From Deltaproteobacteria bacterium IMCC39524 (GTDB lineage Bacteria; Desulfobacterota; Desulfuromonadia; Desulfuromonadales; BM103): DNA of 64,000 bases. The position numbers and the translations under genes were made by a program. Of this stretch, positions 20,050 to 34,374 are shown piece after piece. Below the pieces are notes generated by a model that worked only from the letters and a program-made list of their open reading frames with translations, was not told the origin of the DNA and ran no database searches. The stretch covers positions 1-64,000 of the forward strand of contig JARUHJ010000007.1 of the NCBI GenBank assembly GCA_029667085.1, given 5' to 3'. The first letter of the stretch is position 1. Each line of letters opens with the position of its first letter.

Positions 20050-20460
20050 ATGAAACTTTTAATGCTCTACACAGATCGGTTTGCGTACACTCCTGCGGTT
20101 AAGACGCTCGATGACGAACCGGATTGCCATGAGCCGGGCGAAATCAAGGCGGCGGTGGTCGGTTTGATTCACGCAGAAGCCTTTGATGAAGAGAATGCTG
20201 CGGGGGTGGAAAAGAAGCTGGTGAAGAATCTCAAGTGGGGGGCGCGTAAGAACAAGACACAACGTATTGTTATCCACACTTTTTCACATCTGGCAGAAAC
20301 AAAAGCCTCGGCAAAATTCACCAAGGCTTTGCTGGGTCGCGCTGTGGAGCGTCTTCGCGGTTCAGGGTACGATGTCTGGCAGACACCTTTTGGTTACTTC
20401 CTTGATCTTGACCTGCAGGCCCCAGGCCGATCAACGGCACGCATCTTCGCTTCTTTCTGA
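20050..20460 (+). CDS. stand-alone threonyl-tRNA synthetase editing-like domain
   Basis: 136 residues. The start MKLLMLYTDRFAYTP and the later VIHTFSHLAETKASAKFTKALL resemble the archaeal ThrRS N-terminal editing domain (a D-aminoacyl-tRNA deacylase-like fold) in free-standing form. Its likely job is hydrolysis of mischarged tRNA. There is no synthetase domain attached. Single gene followed by a REP-like inverted repeat. The assignment is by recalled motif pattern only. Confidence 0.65.
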   Translation: MKLLMLYTDRFAYTPAVKTLDDEPDCHEPGEIKAAVVGLIHAEAFDEENAAGVEKKLVKNLKWGARKNKTQRIVIHTFSHLAETKASAKFTKALLGRAVERLRGSGYDVWQTPFGYFLDLDLQAPGRSTARIFASF

Positions 20461-20612: not shown

Positions 20613-21329
20613 TTATTCCTTCAACTTCACCCGCAAATGACCATCACTGACTTCCATTTCTTCTACACCGTCGGAAAAGGCTGCCCAGAAGCCTTTCTGA
20701 TCACCGAACTCCTGGACCAGGTCGACGTTCTTTATGTTGCCGAGCCAGGCGTTGGGGATCGGTACGCCCCAGAGGCTAATGCCCCGTAAGGCGACGACCG
20801 GTTTTGCGTTCTTGTAGGACAGCTCCAACCCGGCGGTGACTTTGAGTGTTTTGCCACCGAGTAGCGGGAACTCCTCATCAAGAGGGATCAGCAGTTTGGC
20901 GCTGGCCAGATCTTGAGAGAGGTCGATGGCGAGTTTGCTGGCCAGGTCGGTATTCTTTGCCAGCAGGGCGTTCAGTTCACGTTCCGTGAGTATGATTTCT
21001 CGGTTGGCGTTGGTTTCGTCGTAACGCTCAGGTTGCAGATCTTTCTTGTCTCCTGGTTGTTTCCTGTCTTGATGCAAAACTCGAGATCGATGCATGCTAC
21101 CCAACTGATCAAGTTTACTCTCTAATGCCTGCTCCTCGCTAACGCTTAAGGTGACCGGTTTGAAGTCGCCAGGGAAGAGGTAGAGGTACACCGCTCCGAT
21201 TGCCACGAGGGTGGAGATGACGCTGGCAACGACAACAATACCAAGGATCTTCAACCAGCTGTGCGGAGTTTTTTTCTCTTGGCTGGAAGGCAGGTGTTGC
21301 CTGATTGCGTCTGGGAGTTGATCGGTCAT
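20613..21329 (-). CDS. membrane-anchored hypothetical protein
   Basis: 238 residues from ATG 21329 (AGGAC 8 bases upstream; the frame is open to 21503). A cytoplasmic N-terminus of about 25 residues, one membrane span (ILGIVVVASVISTLVAIGAVYLYLF), then a large periplasmic part containing LTERELNALLAKNTDLASKLAIDLSQ and a beta-rich end. The layout resembles a family of inner-membrane proteins with a lipid-binding-like periplasmic domain, but no function is assigned. It follows the DsbA-like gene by 50 bases and is probably co-transcribed. Confidence 0.65.
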   Translation of the reverse strand: MTDQLPDAIRQHLPSSQEKKTPHSWLKILGIVVVASVISTLVAIGAVYLYLFPGDFKPVTLSVSEEQALESKLDQLGSMHRSRVLHQDRKQPGDKKDLQPERYDETNANREIILTERELNALLAKNTDLASKLAIDLSQDLASAKLLIPLDEEFPLLGGKTLKVTAGLELSYKNAKPVVALRGISLWGVPIPNAWLGNIKNVDLVQEFGDQKGFWAAFSDGVEEMEVSDGHLRVKLKE

Positions 21330-21379: not shown

Positions 21380-21976
21380 CTATGAATTTGTTGAATCGAT
21401 CAATCGACGGTAGTGAGCGTAGGGTTGAAAGCCGACCAGCGCGTGTTGCTGATAGACGATTGTAGGGATCGATGAGATGCCGAATTCTTTCGCTCGCTTC
21501 CAATCTTCATCAACATGTGCAGCATAGCGTCTCTTGTCAAGGGTCAACAGGGCGACGTCGGGATCAAGGCCGACAGATTCAGCGATTTCGGCAAGTTTGT
21601 CTGGCAACGCGATGTTGCAGCCATCAACGTAATAGGCATGATAAACGGCCGTGTGGAAGGCTTCGCCTGGCCCCTGCTCCTCTGCCCATTTCCCCAGCTC
21701 TTGGGCGCGGCGACTATTGTAAGTGTGGGTGCGCTCGCCAAAGGGCAGGTCAAGCTCTGCGGCGACCTGCTTGCAGCGCTGCATCATGGCCTCGATGTCA
21801 TAACTCCCGGCGAATAGATCTTCCAGGGACTGACCTTCCTCGGGAGTCTCCGGATGGAGCGGGAACACGCTCAATCGAATGTCGAGATCAAACTCCTTGC
21901 GCAGTTTATCGGTACGCACGGTACCGAAGTAGCACCAGGGTCAGATGTAGTCGAAAAAGATTTCCAAAGTCTTCAT
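21380..21976 (-). CDS. FrnE/DsbA-family oxidoreductase with UGA-encoded selenocysteine
   Basis: 198 residues if the in-frame TGA at 21943-21941 is read as selenocysteine (residue 12). Upstream of it the frame reads MKTLEIFFDYI, and downstream PWCYFGTVRTDKL. FrnE-type proteins have DxxCPWCYxG here, so UGA replaces the first catalytic Cys and gives a U-P-W-C redox motif. A perfect 7-bp hairpin follows within the SECIS window. The rest is a DsbA insertion-type thioredoxin fold ending with SSIPTIVYQQHALVGFQP, the cis-Pro motif. Without read-through, only a fragment lacking the active site from GTG 21919 would remain. The ribosome site before ATG 21976 is weak. Confidence 0.85.
21909..21927 (-). 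promoter_or_regulatory. SECIS-like hairpin
   Basis: On the minus strand TCGGTAC (21927-21921), loop CGTGC, GTACCGA (21915-21909): seven perfect pairs. The loop begins 20 bases after the UGA and has G at its second position, matching the published bacterial SECIS rules (apical loop 16-37 bases downstream, G in the first two loop bases). Confidence 0.7.
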
Positions 21977-25657: not shown

Positions 25658-27289
25658 TTGCAAAAGTCGCATTACAAACCATCAGAGCCCTTAGGGGTTT
25701 TTGACCCCGTTGAACAGGTTGCTGCAGGGCCGGCTTTGACCGCAGCTTTGCGTCATATCCAGCAACCGCTTTACCTGCAGGCACAGGGTTGTGACACTCA
25801 GGTCATGACTGGCACAGTTGGGCCACTTCATGCGCTTGCCGAGGGACAGGTCTTTAACGGTATGGCCCTGGCTTGTCCGATAGAAAAACTTGGCGATGTC
25901 AGTTTCTGTCGTGACTACGCTATTCGCTATCCATACGTTGGTGGTTCCATGGCCAAAGGCATCAGCTCTGTGGCTATGGTCGAGGCTTTGGCCCATGCTG
26001 GTATGCTTGGTTTCTTTGGTGCTGCGGGACTGTTGATCGAAGAGGTCGAGGCGGCCATTGATCAGCTGGAAAGCTCTTCTGCCGGGCTCACTTACGGCTT
26101 TAACCTGATTCATAGCCCCAACGAGCCGGAGCTGGAAAATGCCCTGGTCGACCTTTACCTGCGTCGTGGCATTAACCTGGTGGAAGCCTCGGCTTTTCTC
26201 GCGCTGACGCCTGCTCTTGTGCGCTATCGAACCCACGGCATCTCTCGTGATGCCCAGGGGCGTGTCATTGCTCCGAACCGCATCATCGCCAAAATTTCCC
26301 GAGAAGAAGTCGCCGCACGTTTTTTTGCTCCACCGCCGGAGCGTTTCTTGCAAAAACTTGTTGCTGCGGGAGACTTGACCGCTGAGCAGGCTGAGATGGC
26401 TGCCGAGATTCCTATGGCTCAGGATGTGACCGTCGAGTCCGATTCAGGTGGACATACTGACAACCGTCCTGCCATGGCGCTCTTCCCGACCATCAAGGCG
26501 CAGAAAAATACCTTGCAGAAAGAGTATAATTACAACCAGCCCCTGCGCGTTGGCCTTGGCGGCGGCATTGCCACGCCAGCCTCTGCGGCTGCGGCCTTTG
26601 CTCTGGGCGTCGATTACCTTGTGACCGGTACGATTAACCAGGCCTGTGTTGAGTCCGGAACCTGTGATGAAGTACGCAAGATGCTCGCCGAGACCCGGCA
26701 GGCTGATGTCACCATGGCGCCGTCCGGCGATATGTTTGAGATGGGTGTCAAGGTTCAGGTGATCAAACGAGGCACCATGTTCTCCATGCGTGCGGCCAAG
26801 CTCTATGAGCTCTACCGCGCTCACAGCAGTATTGAAGATCTGCCTGTCGAAGAGCGCCAGAAGCTCGAAAAGACGGTGTTTCGCAAGAATCTCGATCAGG
26901 TCTGGGAAGAGACGTGCAGCTTTTTCACCCAGCGAGACCCGCGCCAGTTGGCCAAGGCTGAGGCTGACCCGAAGTACAAGATGGCCTTGGTGTTCCGCTG
27001 GTATCTCGGCCAGTCGCCGGTCTGGGCCAATCGCGGTGTCGCCGACCGCAAGCTCGATTATCAGATCTGGTGCGGGCCGGCGATGGGCGCTTTTAACGAA
27101 TGGGTAAAGGGCTCTGTGCTGGATGCGGCCGAACAACGAAAAGTTGCCACAGTGGCTATGAATATTCTCTTTGGTGCGGCCGTGTTGATAAGGGCCAACC
27201 AACTTAAACTTCAAGGGGTTTGTCTCGATGATGAGGCAGAGCTTTCGGCACCCCTGGAAATCGCTCAGATTAAGGAGTTTCTCAGTTGA
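25658..27289 (+). CDS. pfaD: PfaD-type enoyl reductase (nitronate monooxygenase-like)
   Basis: 543 residues, TTG start with CAGGGAG 6 bases upstream. An FMN-binding TIM barrel of the 2-nitropropane dioxygenase superfamily, with the PfaD hallmarks YVGGSMAKGISSVAMVEALAHAGMLGFFGAAG and, near 300-320, GLGGGIATPASAAAAFALGVDYLVTGTINQ. In PUFA synthases this acts in trans to reduce chosen enoyl intermediates on the ACPs, and so fixes where double bonds stay. It stands first in the operon, as in terrestrial myxobacterial pfa1, and its stop overlaps the next start by one TTGA tetranucleotide. Confidence 0.93.
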   Translation: MQKSHYKPSEPLGVFDPVEQVAAGPALTAALRHIQQPLYLQAQGCDTQVMTGTVGPLHALAEGQVFNGMALACPIEKLGDVSFCRDYAIRYPYVGGSMAKGISSVAMVEALAHAGMLGFFGAAGLLIEEVEAAIDQLESSSAGLTYGFNLIHSPNEPELENALVDLYLRRGINLVEASAFLALTPALVRYRTHGISRDAQGRVIAPNRIIAKISREEVAARFFAPPPERFLQKLVAAGDLTAEQAEMAAEIPMAQDVTVESDSGGHTDNRPAMALFPTIKAQKNTLQKEYNYNQPLRVGLGGGIATPASAAAAFALGVDYLVTGTINQACVESGTCDEVRKMLAETRQADVTMAPSGDMFEMGVKVQVIKRGTMFSMRAAKLYELYRAHSSIEDLPVEERQKLEKTVFRKNLDQVWEETCSFFTQRDPRQLAKAEADPKYKMALVFRWYLGQSPVWANRGVADRKLDYQIWCGPAMGAFNEWVKGSVLDAAEQRKVATVAMNILFGAAVLIRANQLKLQGVCLDDEAELSAPLEIAQIKEFLS

Positions 27290-30200
27290 AGAAAAACAGC
27301 GGAGAACAGAATCAGAAGACAGCGGCAACGACGCCGTTGGCAATCGTCGGTATCGGCTGCCTTTTTCCCCAGGCAGAAGATAAGGGAACCTTCTGGACCA
27401 ATATCAAGAATGGTACGGACTCGATCATCGAGGTTCCCGAAACCCATTGGCGTTCAGACGATTATTTCGACGCCGATCCCAAGACGGCTGACAAGGTTTA
27501 CGCTAAGTACGGCGGCTTCCTCTCCCCGGTTGATTTCAACCCGATGGAGTACGGCGTTCTGCCCAATGCGCTTGAGGCGATTGATACGTCGCAATTGCTC
27601 GGGCTGGTTGCCGTAGATCAGGCGTTGCAGGATGCCGGCTATACGACTGAGAAGGAATTCGATCGTGATCGCGTCAGCGTCATCATCGGCGTGACCGGAA
27701 CTCTGGAGCTGGTTGTGCCCCTCGGTGCCCGCCTCGGTCATCCGCGCTGGCGCGAAGCGCTGAAAGACGCCGGCATCGCCGATGCGATCGCCGAAGACGT
27801 TATGCAGCGCATCAGTGATTCATACGTCCCCTGGCAGGAAAACTCCTTCCCCGGCCTGCTCGGCAACGTGGTTGCCGGACGGATCAGCAAACATTTTGAT
27901 TTCGGTGGCACCAACTGCGTGGTCGACGCCGCGTGCGGCAGCTCCTTAAGTGCCCTCAACCTGGCGGCGATGGAACTGGCCGCAGGCAAATCGGACATGG
28001 TGGTCACCGGCGGCATCGATACTTTTAACGACATCTTCATGTACACCTGCTTCAGCAAGACTCCGGCCCTGTCTCCTTCCGGCCATGCCAAACCTTTTGC
28101 CGATAATGCTGACGGCACGACTCTGGGCGAAGGCCTGGGAATTGTCGTCATCAAGCGTCTGGCTGATGCCGAGCGTGATGGGGACAAAATCTACGCTGTC
28201 ATCAAGGGTATTGGTGCGTCAAGTGATGGTCGCGGTGCGGCGATTTACGAGCCGAGCGCTGCCGGGCAGCAGAAAGCTTTGCGCCGGGCCTACGAGCAGG
28301 GTGGCGTTGATCCGCAAACAATCGAACTGATCGAAGCACATGGCACCGGTACCAAGGTTGGTGATGCTGTCGAAGTTACTGCGCTGAAGGAAGTTTTCGG
28401 CGAAGCGGAGTCGCCCTGGTGCGCGATCGGATCGATCAAGTCCCAGATCGGTCATACCAAGGCAGCTGCAGGCTCTGCCGGTCTGATTAAAGCCGCCATG
28501 GCGCTCTACAACAAGACCTTGCCGCCGACCATTAAAGTCGAGAAGCCACAGGAAGCAATGACCGCGGCAACCTCTCCATTCTATGTCAACACCGAAACCC
28601 GCCCCTGGATCCCGCGCGGCGATCATCCCCGCCGGGCCGGTATCAGCGCGCTCGGTTTTGGTGGCAGCAACTTCCACTGTCTGCTTGAGGAATACCAGCC
28701 GCTCAAAGTGGCTGCCGACTGGCAGGGTGATGTGCAGATCGCTGCCTTTAGTGCCGCAGATGAAAGCGGACTGGCCTCCGCTTTGCAGAACTTCCCGGCC
28801 GATGCGGCCTGGAACACTCTGCGTCTGGCTGCTGATGAGAGCCGTAACAATTTTGCTGCACAGCAAGCCTGTCGTTTGCTGATGGTTTTTGAGAAAGACA
28901 AATCCAAGCCTGCCGCTCAGGTGAAAAGCGCTTTGGCTATGCTCAAGAGCAGCGATCAAGATTCCTGGAGCACTCCCGACGGCAGCTTTTTTGCCAAGGG
29001 TGAGCTTGATGGCACATTGGCGATGCTGTTCCCCGGTCAGGGCGCCCAGTACCCGGGCATGCTCAAGGACCTGGCGACCCAGTTCCCGCAATTCCTCGAC
29101 TCCTTCACGACTGCCGATCGAGCTTTTTTGTCTAACACAAACGGCAAGGAAGGTCGTCTGGTTGAACTTGTTTATCCTCGCCCCGGTTTCGACCAGGCCA
29201 GCAGAGATCAGAATGTTGCAAATCTGCAGGCAACTGAAGTTGCCCAGCCTGCACTCGGTGCTGTCAGCCTCGGAGCCCGCGACGTACTGGACACCTTCGG
29301 CGTTACTGCCGAAGCTTATGCCGGTCACAGCTACGGAGAGCTGACCGCCCTCTGCTCCGGCGGCTATTTCGATATTGATGCGTTCCATTCGCTGTCACGC
29401 CTGCGTGGCGAATTGATGGCCGCCGGTGACGGCGACCGTGGTTCGATGCTGGCGGTATCCGCACCTCTCGATCAGGTCGAAACCTTTCTCAAGAATTCCG
29501 GGCTGCAACTCGTTCTGGCCAATCGCAATACTCCCGAACAGGGCGTCCTCTCCGGAGCGACGGCTGAAATAGAAAAAGCCGTCAAGCTCCTCGATGAGCA
29601 AGGCCTGCGTTATAAGCAACTTTCTGTTGCAGCGGCCTTCCACAGTGAGCTGGTCGCTGATGCCAGCGGCCCCTTTGGCGAACGTCTGCAGGAGATCAAG
29701 TTTGGTAAACCGACGGCCAGTGTCTTTGCCAACACCACCGGAAGTGTTTACCCGGAAGAGGCTAAGAAAACTCGCGATATCCTCGCTGCTCAATTGGCCT
29801 GCCCAGTCGACTTTGTCGCAGAAATTGAAGCCATGTACGCAGCCGGCATGCGCACCTTCCTCGAGGTTGGCCCTGGTGCGCGTTTGACCGGTATGGTCAA
29901 AGCGATCCTTGGTGAACGAGCCTGCCAGGCGATTGCCGTCGACGCCTCCAATGGCAAGCGTTCGGGCATCAACGACCTGGCCCGGGCCCTGGCTCAGCTG
30001 AGCGCGCTGGGTTACCCGGTTGTACTGTCGAACTGGGATGAAGGCTACGCTGCAAGCATCAAGTCAAAGCAGGGCAAAAAGCCCGGCATGACGATTCCTT
30101 TGACCGGCGCTAACTATTTCAAACGCCCCGCAAAGCGTCCGCCGGTCGCGCAACAAGCCGCACCCGTTGCAACTCCTGCGGCAGCGCCTGTCGCTCATGC

Positions 30201-33200
30201 TGTTCCGCAAGCGGTGTCGACGCCGAGTTCGACGGCACCTGTCACCGATGCCGGTTCCCTGCAGGAAGCCTTGCAGATGACCCGTCAGAGCATGCAGGCT
30301 TTGCAGAATCTGCAGGAGCAGACGTCGCGCCTGCATCAACAGTTCCTTGCCGGTCAGGAAGCCGCGACCCACTCTTTCCTTAACCTGGTTGATCAGCAAA
30401 ACCGTCTGATACAGGGCCAGCCGTTGAAGCCTGCTGTTGCCCCCGTTGCTCAGGCCCCTGTTGCTGCCGTTGCTCCGGTTCAGCCGATGGCCGCTCCAGT
30501 TGCACCGGTTCCGACAGCTGTGACTGCCGCGCCAGCGCCGATTTTTGCCCCTGCCTTTGACAGCAATAAGGTCTCCTCGATTCTGCTCGCGGTCATCGCT
30601 GAAAAAACCGGTTATCCGGAAGAGATGCTGGAACTGGAGATGACCCTCGATGCCGACCTGGGTATCGATTCGATCAAGCGTGTGGAGATCCTTTCCGCGC
30701 TGCAGGAGCAGTTGCCCGAAGCCCCTGCGGTCAAGCCGGAGGATCTGGGCACTCTACAGACTCTCGGCCAGATCATTGAGCACTTAAGTGCCGGCATGGC
30801 GGCGTCACCCACGGCTGCCGCTGCCGCATTGCCAGCAGTTGACAGCAATGTCGTTTCAGCCACCTTGCTTGCCGTGATCGCCGAGAAGACCGGTTACCCG
30901 GAAGAGATGCTGGAACTGGAGATGACCCTCGATACCGACCTCGGTATTGATTCGATCAAGCGTGTAGAGATCCTCTCCGCATTACAGGAAAAGTTGCCGG
31001 AGGCTCCTGCCGTCAAGCCGGAAGACCTTGGCACTCTGCAGACTCTTGGCCAGATCATCGCTCATTTGAGTGCCGGTATGTCACCGGCATCGGCCGCTCA
31101 AGGTGCTGTGCCGGTTGCGGCCCCTGAGGTTGATGGTCGCCGTATCTCAAGCGTGTTGCTCGAAGTGATCGCCGAGAAGACCGGCTATCCGATCGAGATG
31201 CTTGAGATGGAGATGGCTCTCGATACTGATCTGGGTATTGATTCGATCAAACGCGTCGAAATCCTCTCTGCGCTCCAGGAAAAGTTGCCGGAAGCTCCGG
31301 CCGTCAAGCCTGAAGATCTGGGTGTGTTGCAGACGCTTGGCCAGATTGTCGATCATTTGAGCGCAGGCATGGTCATTGACGCGCCAGTAGCACAGGCCGC
31401 TGCAGCGCCAGCTCTTGATAGCGGTCGCGTTGCAAGCGTGCTGCTCGAAGTGATCGCCGAGAAGACCGGCTATCCGATTGAGATGCTTGAGATGGAGATG
31501 GCCCTCGACACCGATCTTGGTATCGATTCGATCAAGCGTGTTGAAATTCTTTCCTCATTGCAGGAGAAGCTCCCCGAGGCACCGGCGGTTAAACCGGAAG
31601 ATCTTGGCGTGCTGCAAACCCTCGGTCAGATCGTAGAACATCTCGCAGTGGCTGGCAACAAGAGCGCCGCACCGGTAACACCCGTTGCAACGAGCAGTCC
31701 ACTGGATCGTGATGCCGTGGCGGCAACCTTGCTGGACGTGATTGCCGGCAAAACCGGTTACCCGGTCGAGATGCTTGAACTTGAGATGGCGCTTGATACG
31801 GATCTCGGCATCGATTCGATCAAACGCGTCGAGATTCTCTCCGCTCTGCAGGACAAACTACCGGGAGCACCGGCGATCAAACCGGAACACCTAGGCACTT
31901 TACAGACTGTTGGTCATATTGTGGATTTTCTCGCCAGTGTGTCCGGCGTCTCTGAACCAGAGGCGAAGGTTGAAGCGCCTCTTGAGTTGCCGTCTGTAGG
32001 CAGCGGTGTGGAACGCAAGGTCCTCAAGGCGATTCCGTTGCCGTCCTCCGGGAATCGGGAGTCACTAAATCTGGCAAAAGGGTCTCTGGTTTGGGTCAGT
32101 GATGATGGTTCGGAGCTGACCAATGCGCTTTGCCAGCAGCTGGAAGCCCAAGGGCTGAAGGCTGAGAAAACCAGTCTCGCTCAACTTGATGGCCTTGTCC
32201 CGAATGACAACCTGGCTGGGCTGGTCCTGGTTGCTCCACACTCCGGTAGTGATGATCTTTTCCTGCAGAGCGCTTTCCGCCTGATGCAATTGGCGGAGCC
32301 AGCGCTTAAAGCTGCTGCTGATAAGTCTGGAGCGGTCATGGCTACGGTGTCGCGACTGAACGGTTGTTTCGGTCTGGCTGACGGTGGTGCAGTGACCGAT
32401 GCCCTTTCAGGAGGCTTGGCCGGTCTGGCCAAAACGGCCGGGCACGAGTGGCCTGAAGTCGCCTGCAAAGCCTTCGACCTGTCGGCAGACCTGACTGATG
32501 TGAATAAAAGCGCAGAAATGCTGGTTGGCGAACTTCTGGTTGACGGTGTCCAGGAAGTCGGTTTCTCGACTCAAGGTTTGCAAACGCTCAGCTTGGTCGA
32601 AGAAGCTATCTCTGGTGAAAAGCTTGATTCGCCGGTCGATTATGGTGATGTGGTCGTGGTTAGCGGCGGCGCACGCGGTGTGACTGCGGAGGTTGCGATT
32701 GCTCTTGCCGCATCGAGTCGCGCGACACTGTTGCTGCTCGGTCGCAGTGCAGCACCACAATCGGAACCGGTCTGGCTGGAGGGGTTGCAGGGTGAAGCAG
32801 TGATCAAAAAAGCGGTGGTTGCTAATGCCGACAGCCCCCTTAAGCCGAAAGATGTGGGTCGCAAGTGCCAGGAGATTCTTGGCAATCGTGAAATCCGCCA
32901 GAGCTTGCGGCGCATTAAGGAGGCCGGAGGACAGGCCATCTATCGCTCCGTCGACCTGCGTGACGGGGGTGCTGTTGCAGCTGTCATCAAGGACGTTCGT
33001 GAAGAGTACGGTCCGGTCAAGGGTCTGATTCATGGCGCTGGAGTGCTGGCCGATCGCCTGATCAAGGACAAGACCGCAGAGCAGTTTGAGCTAGTCTACA
33101 GCACCAAGATCGCGGGCCTGCGCAATCTGCTGACTGCCGTTGCCGATGATGCGTTGAAATTCATGGTGATGTTCTCGTCATCAACCGGGCGTTTCGGCCG

Positions 33201-34374
33201 CACCGGTCAGGTTGATTATGCCGTGGCCAACGAGATCCTCAATAAGATAGCCCAAGAGGAGGCGGCACAACGTTCTGACTGTCGCGTCCTCTCCCTGAAC
33301 TGGGGGCCTTGGGATGGAGGCATGGTGACCCCGGCGCTGAAGAAAGTTTTCGCTGAAGAAGGGGTGGCTGTCATCGACCTCAAGGCGGGTGCCGATTACC
33401 TGGTCGAGGAAATTGCAACGCCACCGGGTGGGCCGGTCGAGCTGGTGATCCTCGGTGGGCGTGAAGAAGCGGCGAGCGAAGTTTCATCTCAGTCTCATGA
33501 TAATATCTATGTTTCCAAGGCCTTCGACCTGGAGGTCTCGATTGAACAGTACCCCTTCCTCAAGTCCCACGTCATAGATGGCAAGGCGGTTCTGCCAATG
33601 GCGGTGATGATTGAGTGGATGGCGCATGGTGCGATTCATAACAATCCGGGCTTACGTTTCCATGGTTTCAACGATCTGCGGGTGTTGAAAGGTGTCACCC
33701 TGGAGCAGGGGCAAAGCCATACCTTGCAGGTGATGACCGGCAAGTCCTTCAAGAGCGGTGGTGTGCATGTCGTGCCCGTGGAGCTCTCAGGTGTTGCGGC
33801 GAACGGCAAGCAGTTCGTTCACTGCCGCGCCAGAATCGTTCTGGCTGCCAAGCTGCCTGAAGGCAAGGTGGCTATGGAGCGTGTTGAACTCCAGGCTTAC
33901 AGTCGGCCGATCGAAGAAGTCTACCAACCTGACCGGCTCTTCCACGGACCAGACTTCCACGGTATCCGTGAGGTAATTGGCTGCTCTGCTGACGGCATCG
34001 CTTCGATGGTCCGTCCGGCGCCACTGCCGACCGACTGGATCAAGCAGCCGTTGCGAAATTCATGGCTCTCTGATCCTCTAGCCCTCGACAGCAGCTTCCA
34101 GTTGATGATCCTCTGGAGCTTCGAGCGCTACAAGTCTGCATCCCTGCCGGTCTTCGCTGGACGTTATCGTCAGTACCTGGAGCGCTTCCCTGAAAGCGGT
34201 GCCGAGATCCGTATCCGCGTGACCAACCAAAATGCCAGCAAGGCCGCTGCGGAAATCGATTTTGTCGACCCGGGCAGCGGCGCACTGATCGCCCGTATCG
34301 AGGATTACCAGTGCGTGATTGATACGTCGCTGAATGCGAGCTTCCAGCGCAACAAACTGCAGGGAGTTGCCTGA
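27286..34374 (+). CDS. pfaA: PfaA-type PUFA synthase: KS-AT-5xACP-KR-DH
   Basis: 2362 residues, TTG start (AAGGAG upstream), overlapping pfaD. KS (about 15-470) has catalytic Cys217 (DAACGSS), His352 (EAHGTGT) and His390. AT (about 580-900) has Ser682 in GHSYGE and His786. Five ACPs carry the pantetheine Ser at 1129, 1223, 1320, 1415 and 1511 in GIDSIK, spaced 94-97 residues with Ala/Pro/Val linkers. KR (about 1785-2060) has GGARG and Tyr1978. A polyketide-type DH at the end has His2095 and Asp2268. All catalytic residues are present. The AT loads malonyl units and the KS extends them on the ACPs. Confidence 0.95.
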   Translation: MKKNSGEQNQKTAATTPLAIVGIGCLFPQAEDKGTFWTNIKNGTDSIIEVPETHWRSDDYFDADPKTADKVYAKYGGFLSPVDFNPMEYGVLPNALEAIDTSQLLGLVAVDQALQDAGYTTEKEFDRDRVSVIIGVTGTLELVVPLGARLGHPRWREALKDAGIADAIAEDVMQRISDSYVPWQENSFPGLLGNVVAGRISKHFDFGGTNCVVDAACGSSLSALNLAAMELAAGKSDMVVTGGIDTFNDIFMYTCFSKTPALSPSGHAKPFADNADGTTLGEGLGIVVIKRLADAERDGDKIYAVIKGIGASSDGRGAAIYEPSAAGQQKALRRAYEQGGVDPQTIELIEAHGTGTKVGDAVEVTALKEVFGEAESPWCAIGSIKSQIGHTKAAAGSAGLIKAAMALYNKTLPPTIKVEKPQEAMTAATSPFYVNTETRPWIPRGDHPRRAGISALGFGGSNFHCLLEEYQPLKVAADWQGDVQIAAFSAADESGLASALQNFPADAAWNTLRLAADESRNNFAAQQACRLLMVFEKDKSKPAAQVKSALAMLKSSDQDSWSTPDGSFFAKGELDGTLAMLFPGQGAQYPGMLKDLATQFPQFLDSFTTADRAFLSNTNGKEGRLVELVYPRPGFDQASRDQNVANLQATEVAQPALGAVSLGARDVLDTFGVTAEAYAGHSYGELTALCSGGYFDIDAFHSLSRLRGELMAAGDGDRGSMLAVSAPLDQVETFLKNSGLQLVLANRNTPEQGVLSGATAEIEKAVKLLDEQGLRYKQLSVAAAFHSELVADASGPFGERLQEIKFGKPTASVFANTTGSVYPEEAKKTRDILAAQLACPVDFVAEIEAMYAAGMRTFLEVGPGARLTGMVKAILGERACQAIAVDASNGKRSGINDLARALAQLSALGYPVVLSNWDEGYAASIKSKQGKKPGMTIPLTGANYFKRPAKRPPVAQQAAPVATPAAAPVAHAVPQAVSTPSSTAPVTDAGSLQEALQMTRQSMQALQNLQEQTSRLHQQFLAGQEAATHSFLNLVDQQNRLIQGQPLKPAVAPVAQAPVAAVAPVQPMAAPVAPVPTAVTAAPAPIFAPAFDSNKVSSILLAVIAEKTGYPEEMLELEMTLDADLGIDSIKRVEILSALQEQLPEAPAVKPEDLGTLQTLGQIIEHLSAGMAASPTAAAAALPAVDSNVVSATLLAVIAEKTGYPEEMLELEMTLDTDLGIDSIKRVEILSALQEKLPEAPAVKPEDLGTLQTLGQIIAHLSAGMSPASAAQGAVPVAAPEVDGRRISSVLLEVIAEKTGYPIEMLEMEMALDTDLGIDSIKRVEILSALQEKLPEAPAVKPEDLGVLQTLGQIVDHLSAGMVIDAPVAQAAAAPALDSGRVASVLLEVIAEKTGYPIEMLEMEMALDTDLGIDSIKRVEILSSLQEKLPEAPAVKPEDLGVLQTLGQIVEHLAVAGNKSAAPVTPVATSSPLDRDAVAATLLDVIAGKTGYPVEMLELEMALDTDLGIDSIKRVEILSALQDKLPGAPAIKPEHLGTLQTVGHIVDFLASVSGVSEPEAKVEAPLELPSVGSGVERKVLKAIPLPSSGNRESLNLAKGSLVWVSDDGSELTNALCQQLEAQGLKAEKTSLAQLDGLVPNDNLAGLVLVAPHSGSDDLFLQSAFRLMQLAEPALKAAADKSGAVMATVSRLNGCFGLADGGAVTDALSGGLAGLAKTAGHEWPEVACKAFDLSADLTDVNKSAEMLVGELLVDGVQEVGFSTQGLQTLSLVEEAISGEKLDSPVDYGDVVVVSGGARGVTAEVAIALAASSRATLLLLGRSAAPQSEPVWLEGLQGEAVIKKAVVANADSPLKPKDVGRKCQEILGNREIRQSLRRIKEAGGQAIYRSVDLRDGGAVAAVIKDVREEYGPVKGLIHGAGVLADRLIKDKTAEQFELVYSTKIAGLRNLLTAVADDALKFMVMFSSSTGRFGRTGQVDYAVANEILNKIAQEEAAQRSDCRVLSLNWGPWDGGMVTPALKKVFAEEGVAVIDLKAGADYLVEEIATPPGGPVELVILGGREEAASEVSSQSHDNIYVSKAFDLEVSIEQYPFLKSHVIDGKAVLPMAVMIEWMAHGAIHNNPGLRFHGFNDLRVLKGVTLEQGQSHTLQVMTGKSFKSGGVHVVPVELSGVAANGKQFVHCRARIVLAAKLPEGKVAMERVELQAYSRPIEEVYQPDRLFHGPDFHGIREVIGCSADGIASMVRPAPLPTDWIKQPLRNSWLSDPLALDSSFQLMILWSFERYKSASLPVFAGRYRQYLERFPESGAEIRIRVTNQNASKAAAEIDFVDPGSGALIARIEDYQCVIDTSLNASFQRNKLQGVA
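30559..31940 (+). repeat. five tandem ACP-coding repeats in pfaA
   Basis: Five units of about 285 bases. ACP1 and ACP2 share EMLELEMTLD, ACP3 and ACP4 share EMLEMEMALD, and ACP5 has EMLELEMALD; the pairs are also closest at DNA level, which suggests recent duplication in pairs or local gene conversion. Confidence 0.85.

Follow-up and report, generated by a model that had tools for sequence, protein, structure and literature searches.

The selenoproteins closest to the gene described here have been published as 'DsbA-like' proteins of COG2761, which we take to be the FrnE group. They were recorded with a UXXC motif and nine sequences in the Sargasso Sea survey of 2005 (PMC1088965), with four members in 2006, when Anaeromyxobacter, Desulfovibrio desulfuricans and Desulfotomaculum were among the rows listed and the Geobacter and Desulfuromonas entries among those rows had no DsbA-like protein (PMC1794560), as a two-member cluster in 2007 (PMC1914089), as 45 genes from 41 organisms in 2016 (PMC5029168) and as two Asgard sequences in 2024 (PMC11227280). 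The family is also included in reviews of 2022 (PMC9312934) and 2026, and in the tables of the latter 'DsbA-like protein form 1' is given as PF01323 with UxxC (PMC13188914). A hairpin with a small loop and an apical G just past the UGA is a described feature of the bacterial SECIS element (PMC1088965). Among the literature matches listed, none described a bacterial FrnE selenoprotein by that name. Here we analyse a gene of Deltaproteobacteria bacterium IMCC39524, located in a stretch of 64,000 nucleotides (the window), which, judged by comparison of sequences, very probably encodes a selenoprotein (21976-21380, minus strand).

The UGA codon and its reading frame

The coding sequence extends on the minus strand from ATG 21976 to a TAG stop codon (21382-21380) and encodes 198 residues of a FrnE-type protein with a DSBA-like thioredoxin domain, an assignment drawn from the frame, the PF01323 match, the homologs that keep the TGA and a structural model. 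A single in-frame TGA (21943-21941) interrupts this otherwise open frame at codon 12, and with this codon read as selenocysteine (Sec, U) the N-terminal translation is M-KTLEIFFDYI-U-PWC-YFGTVRTDKL, in which the Sec of the UPWC motif aligns with the first motif Cys of the Cys-containing homologs.

A homolog (E <= 1e-10) was found in 34 of the 136 genomes of the order, with a TGA within the match in all 34 cases; 33 of these were fetched (all except the match in G052), and all had U at the motif. In the phylum sample, 86 of 395 genomes gave a match, 69 with the TGA and 17 without it, and the 16 of these 17 that were fetched all had C at the site (in this sample G271 was not fetched, and the match in G483 was C-terminal only and did not cover the active site). 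The order set, the phylum sample and a set of 26 loci, after exclusion of identical domains and of matches short of the N-terminal region, comprised 133 distinct homologs, 111 with U (95 UPWC, 14 UPFC and 2 UPYC) and 22 with C. The [U/C]xxC dyad was present in every one of them, and none had been discarded for a missing dyad. The possibility that the TGA is a sequencing or assembly error for TGC or TGT is vanishingly small, given that the TGA stands at the same codon in 111 distinct homologs, including L018, L019 and L022 from the same genus.

The other reading in which no Sec is inserted holds that the UGA is a true stop codon and the gene a decayed or miscalled remnant, translated from GTG 21919 or not at all. 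The standard-code ORF in the ORF listing does start at GTG 21919 and excludes the active site, but the TGA is found at the same codon throughout the phylum, the frame beyond it is intact and the codons preceding it are under strong purifying selection, with a pN/pS of 0.11 over 10 codons (six family sequences) and of 0.16 over 8 codons (86 rows). The segment upstream of the UGA is thus coding, since its pN/pS is 0.11, and we consider a true stop codon very improbable. With a standard-code ORF that starts past the active site, and with the protein below the cut-off of every NCBIfam model, the gene is readily overlooked and counts of the family come out too low.

An alternative start codon at ATG 22000 was rejected for three reasons: some relatives, L018 and L019 among them, lack it; 7 of 28 relatives have a TAA or TAG in frame at most 8 codons upstream of the later ATG; and in the model of the longer reading, residues 1-7 lack structure (pLDDT <50). 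A second Sec residue, considered for three homologs with two TGAs (L027, L030 and L039), was likewise dismissed, the second TGA being the terminal stop at the protein end (residue 204-205). At L035, a second, incomplete copy covering roughly the final 50 residues lies downstream of the Sec gene (G071:C86:807-956).

The SECIS-like hairpin and the selenocysteine machinery

Just past the UGA lies an apical SECIS-like hairpin (21927-21909, minus strand; UCGGUAC-CGUGC-GUACCGA) with a 7-bp stem and a 5-nt loop, CGUGC (21920-21916), that has G at its second position. The stem spans +14 to +32 after the UGA, the first loop base being at +21. A 67-nt fold had an energy z of -2.79, and only 1 of 200 dinucleotide shuffles folded as well. 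Among 200 synonymous shuffles that preserve the protein, an equally good hairpin by a simple stem score was obtained in 0.5%, and a fold energy as low within +1 to +45 in 4.5%.

Both sides of the stem change together across species, the inner six pairs being CGGUAC/GUACCG, CAGUAC/GUAUUG, CUGUAC/GUAUAG, CGGUGC/GCACCG and CGAUAC/GUAUCG. Standard pairs occupied 89.0% of the cells in eight column pairs (+13/+33 to +20/+26) across 110 distinct Sec sequences. In 500 codon-permutation trials the mean was 81.3% and no trial exceeded 83.0%; codons were swapped there only between sequences sharing an amino acid at a given position, so that the protein is kept and the relatedness of the sequences is not. 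The covariation score was 0.463 against a permutation maximum of 0.338, and pairing reached at most 51.1% when the 3' side was slid by 1-3 columns. In contrast, the 22 Cys homologs showed 46.0% pairing at the same columns, which is inside their own permutation range. G was found at loop position 2 in 107 of the 110 Sec sequences. The mean fold z relative to synonymous shuffles was -1.02 for the 111 U homologs and -0.13 for the 22 C homologs, with -0.15 and -0.42 for two later stretches of the U genes that served as controls. Taken singly, 56% of the 111 Sec homologs had a hairpin at p <= 0.05, compared with none of the 22 Cys homologs; under the simple model, 8 of the 111 TGA homologs had no hairpin. 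The picture is that of a SECIS-like hairpin with an apical G that is under selection, as expected of a selenoprotein gene. At the gathering threshold, Rfam reported one tRNA and nothing else in the whole window. A 7-bp hairpin with the loop CGTGA was also drawn at the SECIS place of a Cys-form homolog from a Geobacteraceae MAG (L067:3062-3080); although it might be a remnant, its p of 0.15 is not significant and it was rejected as such.

The genome of IMCC39524 (3.78 Mb, 19 contigs, 99.99% complete) contains selA, selB, selC and selD, the machinery expected with a bacterial selenoprotein. The tRNA-Sec (selC, UCA anticodon) scored 75.3 bits and was called tRNA-SeC(tca) by ARAGORN, while a second tRNA-Sec-like match above the cut-off was discarded as a tRNA-Trp. 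SelB scored 405.5 bits, SelA 620.6 bits and SelD 361.8 bits, and the three genes adjoin on contig C2. The selD gene has its own in-frame TGA in TSGUAAK, which we take to be the usual Sec site of SelD. SelB bound to the hairpin would bring Sec-tRNA to the UGA, a step that the comparison of homologs supports.

SelB was searched for in 63 of the 69 phylum genomes with the TGA (G451, G486, G329, G188 and G271 were left out and the genome of IMCC39524 was assessed separately) and scored above the cut-off in 59 of them, compared with 14 of the 17 genomes without the TGA, including G516 and G171. The presence of the machinery was therefore rejected as a discriminator between the U and C forms; SelB was also found in the genomes of the Cys homologs L067 and L069. 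Three of the four TGA genomes without SelB reach 76-85% completeness, and in these a tRNA-Sec scored above the cut-off. In G331, which has the TGA form and is scored as 100% complete, neither SelB (E <= 1e-60) nor tRNA-Sec (E <= 1e-8, 150 of 473 tRNA candidates scored) was found; a missing contig, a foreign contig or decay are the options for its homolog L122 (G331:C37:26061-26624).

The original prediction, made from this DNA alone, had proposed a selenoprotein gene in which a TGA replaces the first Cys codon of a CPWC motif with conserved sequence on both sides, together with a hairpin with a 7-bp stem and a 5-base loop that begins within the SECIS window. Both elements were recovered at the positions given above, the TGA aligned with the first motif Cys when Cys homologs were added, and the hairpin covaried in the Sec homologs only. 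The prediction had named a lack of Sec machinery as the observation that would speak against it, and selA, selB and selC were all present, together with selD. A leaderless mRNA was no part of the prediction.

Protein fold, proposed function and Sec/Cys history

The protein matches PF01323 (DSBA) with an E-value of 6.1e-31 and 108.1 bits (gathering cut-off 25.6), and an AlphaFold2 model from a 20-sequence alignment (pLDDT 89.3, pTM 0.85) had FrnE structures as its top PDB fold matches (TMq 0.87-0.89), placing the protein among the DSBA/FrnE proteins. FrnE of Deinococcus radiodurans (PDB 5cnw, 5co3, 5coh, 5xwh and 5cp1) and SCO1869 of S. coelicolor (3gl5) ranked first both in sequence (E 1.3e-15 and 3.1e-10) and in fold; their active-site dyad lies in the same place, with Cys at the position of the Sec. 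At 260 residues, the D. radiodurans chain is longer, and it carries an additional C-terminal redox cysteine pair (C239 is named in a PDB title), whereas the protein described here ends soon after the core fold and, in an alignment of 20 rows (the window and 19 of the 26 loci), the two columns of the active site were the only invariant Sec/Cys columns. It hence does not belong to the D. radiodurans FrnE subgroup defined by that pair. DsbM of Pseudomonas aeruginosa (5hfi and 5hfg, with 'cytosolic disulfide reductase' in the titles) is a Cys enzyme that shares the DsbA-like fold and the cytosolic location and was a weaker fold match (TMq 0.65-0.66). No signal-peptide-like start was present in the protein sequence, and the protein should act in the cytosol.

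A FrnE-like oxidoreductase role is probable. The alternative of a glutathione-dependent isomerase or transferase of the HCCA-isomerase/GST-kappa branch draws on structures of this kind that follow FrnE in the fold matches (3fz5, 2imd and 3rpp), two of which, 2imd and 3fz5, are also weak sequence matches. However, FrnE structures came first both by sequence and by fold, the dyad is kept in the whole homolog set and, to our knowledge, neither the isomerases nor the kappa enzymes belong to the CxxC enzymes, so that we regard this alternative as unlikely. In thioredoxin-fold enzymes with UxxC, the first residue attacks and the second, a Cys, resolves the intermediate. For a FrnE-like oxidoreductase, the fold and the motif suggest that the selenolate of U-P-W-C would attack a substrate disulfide or another oxidised target to form a mixed bond, that the Cys three residues past the Sec would resolve it and that glutathione or thioredoxin would reset the enzyme. 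With Sec in this motif, the enzyme would be expected to work faster, or to withstand oxidation better, than with Cys, and our best guess for its general role is disulfide or peroxide repair.

In a quick tree of 132 of the 133 homologs (fragment L127 omitted, no bootstrap, several long branches), the gene fell into a clade of 95 rows, 91 with Sec and 4 with Cys, with an SH-aLRT of 100. The four Cys rows form two nested pairs on long stems, and SelB is encoded in all four genomes. Because these pairs stand at separate places, Sec was most simply ancestral in the clade and changed twice to Cys, the tree alone being silent on gain versus loss. The whole tree requires at least 10 Sec/Cys changes, 7 of them forced by starred branches. 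A clade in which Sec is usual and Cys exceptional lends itself to the question of what advantage Sec gives to a cytosolic disulfide enzyme.

The neighbouring genes were rejected as a guide to function, since frames shared in the flanks never extended over groups of more than 10 loci, some of them being spurious antisense frames; in the flanks compared, no neighbour gene was common beyond close relatives. The downstream gene (20613-21326, minus strand), kept beside the selenoprotein gene in five family loci (L017, L018, L020, L021 and L022), has a 237-residue product that includes a stretch resembling a membrane helix and matches no Pfam family. Elsewhere in the window, 20050-20460 (plus strand) encodes, in a bacterium, an 'archaea-specific' editing domain of threonyl-tRNA synthetase that is freestanding (PF08915, E 7.1e-31); this domain matched (E <= 1e-10) in 21 of the 136 order genomes and, among 14 control genomes, only in three archaea. 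The gene at 27286-34374 (plus strand), whose translation contains repeated carrier-like segments, encodes a very long synthase of the polyketide type that presumably resembles the polyunsaturated fatty acid synthases.

A conserved, predicted promoter at the start codon and comparison with known systems

In leaderless mRNAs of other bacteria, the -10 element lies a few nucleotides before the start codon. A comparable pattern was first spotted by eye in the alignment and tested afterwards: upstream of the selenoprotein gene, an extended -10 element, TGC-TAACCT (21992-21984, minus strand), ends 7 nt before the ATG, and a -35-like TTGCCC (22011-22006, minus strand) lies 16 nt from the -10 hexamer. 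With a tested range of 4-9 nt, TGnTAnnnT was present in 28 of the 111 Sec homologs, its end always 6-8 nt upstream of the start, and in 0 of 21 Cys homologs, compared with 0.4% of shuffled upstream sequences. The distance to the ATG was 6 nt in 19 cases, 7 nt in 8 and 8 nt in 1. These 28 are 28 of the 33 Sec homologs read from the order, the gene described here counted, and come from 8 families, each from its own species; the order homologs without the element are L025, L027, L029, L030 and L161. A Shine-Dalgarno sequence, by the rule used, was present in none of the 28, compared with 71 of the 83 other Sec homologs and 19 of the 21 Cys homologs (start codons were chosen by rule and are doubtful for L076, L087 and L093). 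A TTG at a -35 spacer of 15-19 was found in 25 of the 28, the chance being 0.087 per sequence. In a survey of 335 ORFs elsewhere in the genome (400 kb and the window, by a simple ORF rule and with the start of the selenoprotein gene excluded), an element at 5-8 nt from a possible start was found in only 3, and these distances showed no peak.

Transcription by RNA polymerase initiates about 6-8 nt past a -10 element, which would put the RNA 5' end at the AUG (21976-21974, minus strand) or right beside it and make the UGA codon 12. With an extended -10 element a few nucleotides before the start and no Shine-Dalgarno sequence by the rule used, this is probably a leaderless mRNA made from a sigma-70-type promoter, its 5' end being at the AUG or within a nucleotide or two of it. 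Because a generic promoter scan did not list the -10/-35 site, which has 7 of 12 consensus bases, this reading is founded on conservation. The same omission, the modest consensus score and a 5' end that is predicted would suit an mRNA with real Sec decoding but a normal 5' leader, made from a promoter farther upstream while the -10-like element is weak or unused. We consider such a leader rather unlikely in view of the spacing kept in 28 homologs from 8 families, the rarity of the element by chance, the absence of Shine-Dalgarno sequences in just these homologs and the TTG at a fitting distance in nearly all of them.

It is fairly likely that a leaderless mRNA serves for this selenoprotein across the order (28 genomes, 8 families), with Sec inserted by a ribosome that has started without Shine-Dalgarno contact. 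As the arrangement is kept here and rare elsewhere in the sampled genome, the mode of starting may be linked with Sec decoding or its regulation. A leaderless mRNA would also provide a simple natural test of SelB-dependent recoding on ribosomes started without a leader. Among the literature matches listed from the one collection searched, there was no report of a leaderless selenoprotein mRNA.

Compared with the leaderless mRNAs of other bacteria, the gene likewise has an extended -10 element close to the ATG and no Shine-Dalgarno sequence, and differs in that a UGA at codon 12 needs recoding too and in that the arrangement is rare in the sampled genome. The FrnE/DsbA-like UxxC assignment of the original prediction agrees with the PF01323 match, the FrnE structures ranking first and the UPWC read, while its description of the selenoprotein as new does not stand, COG2761 selenoproteins with UXXC being on record since 2005 (PMC1088965). 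As far as the published tables allow comparison, the 'DsbA-like' family has the same Pfam domain, UxxC with Sec first, a SECIS-like stem-loop past the UGA and deltaproteobacterial members, and the protein falls within it by PF01323 and a UxxC with Sec first; the accessible parts of these reports mention neither a Sec-dominated clade nor a leaderless mRNA. The selenoprotein is thus a further member of the known DsbA-like family, to which the Sec-dominated clade and the predicted leaderless arrangement are additions.
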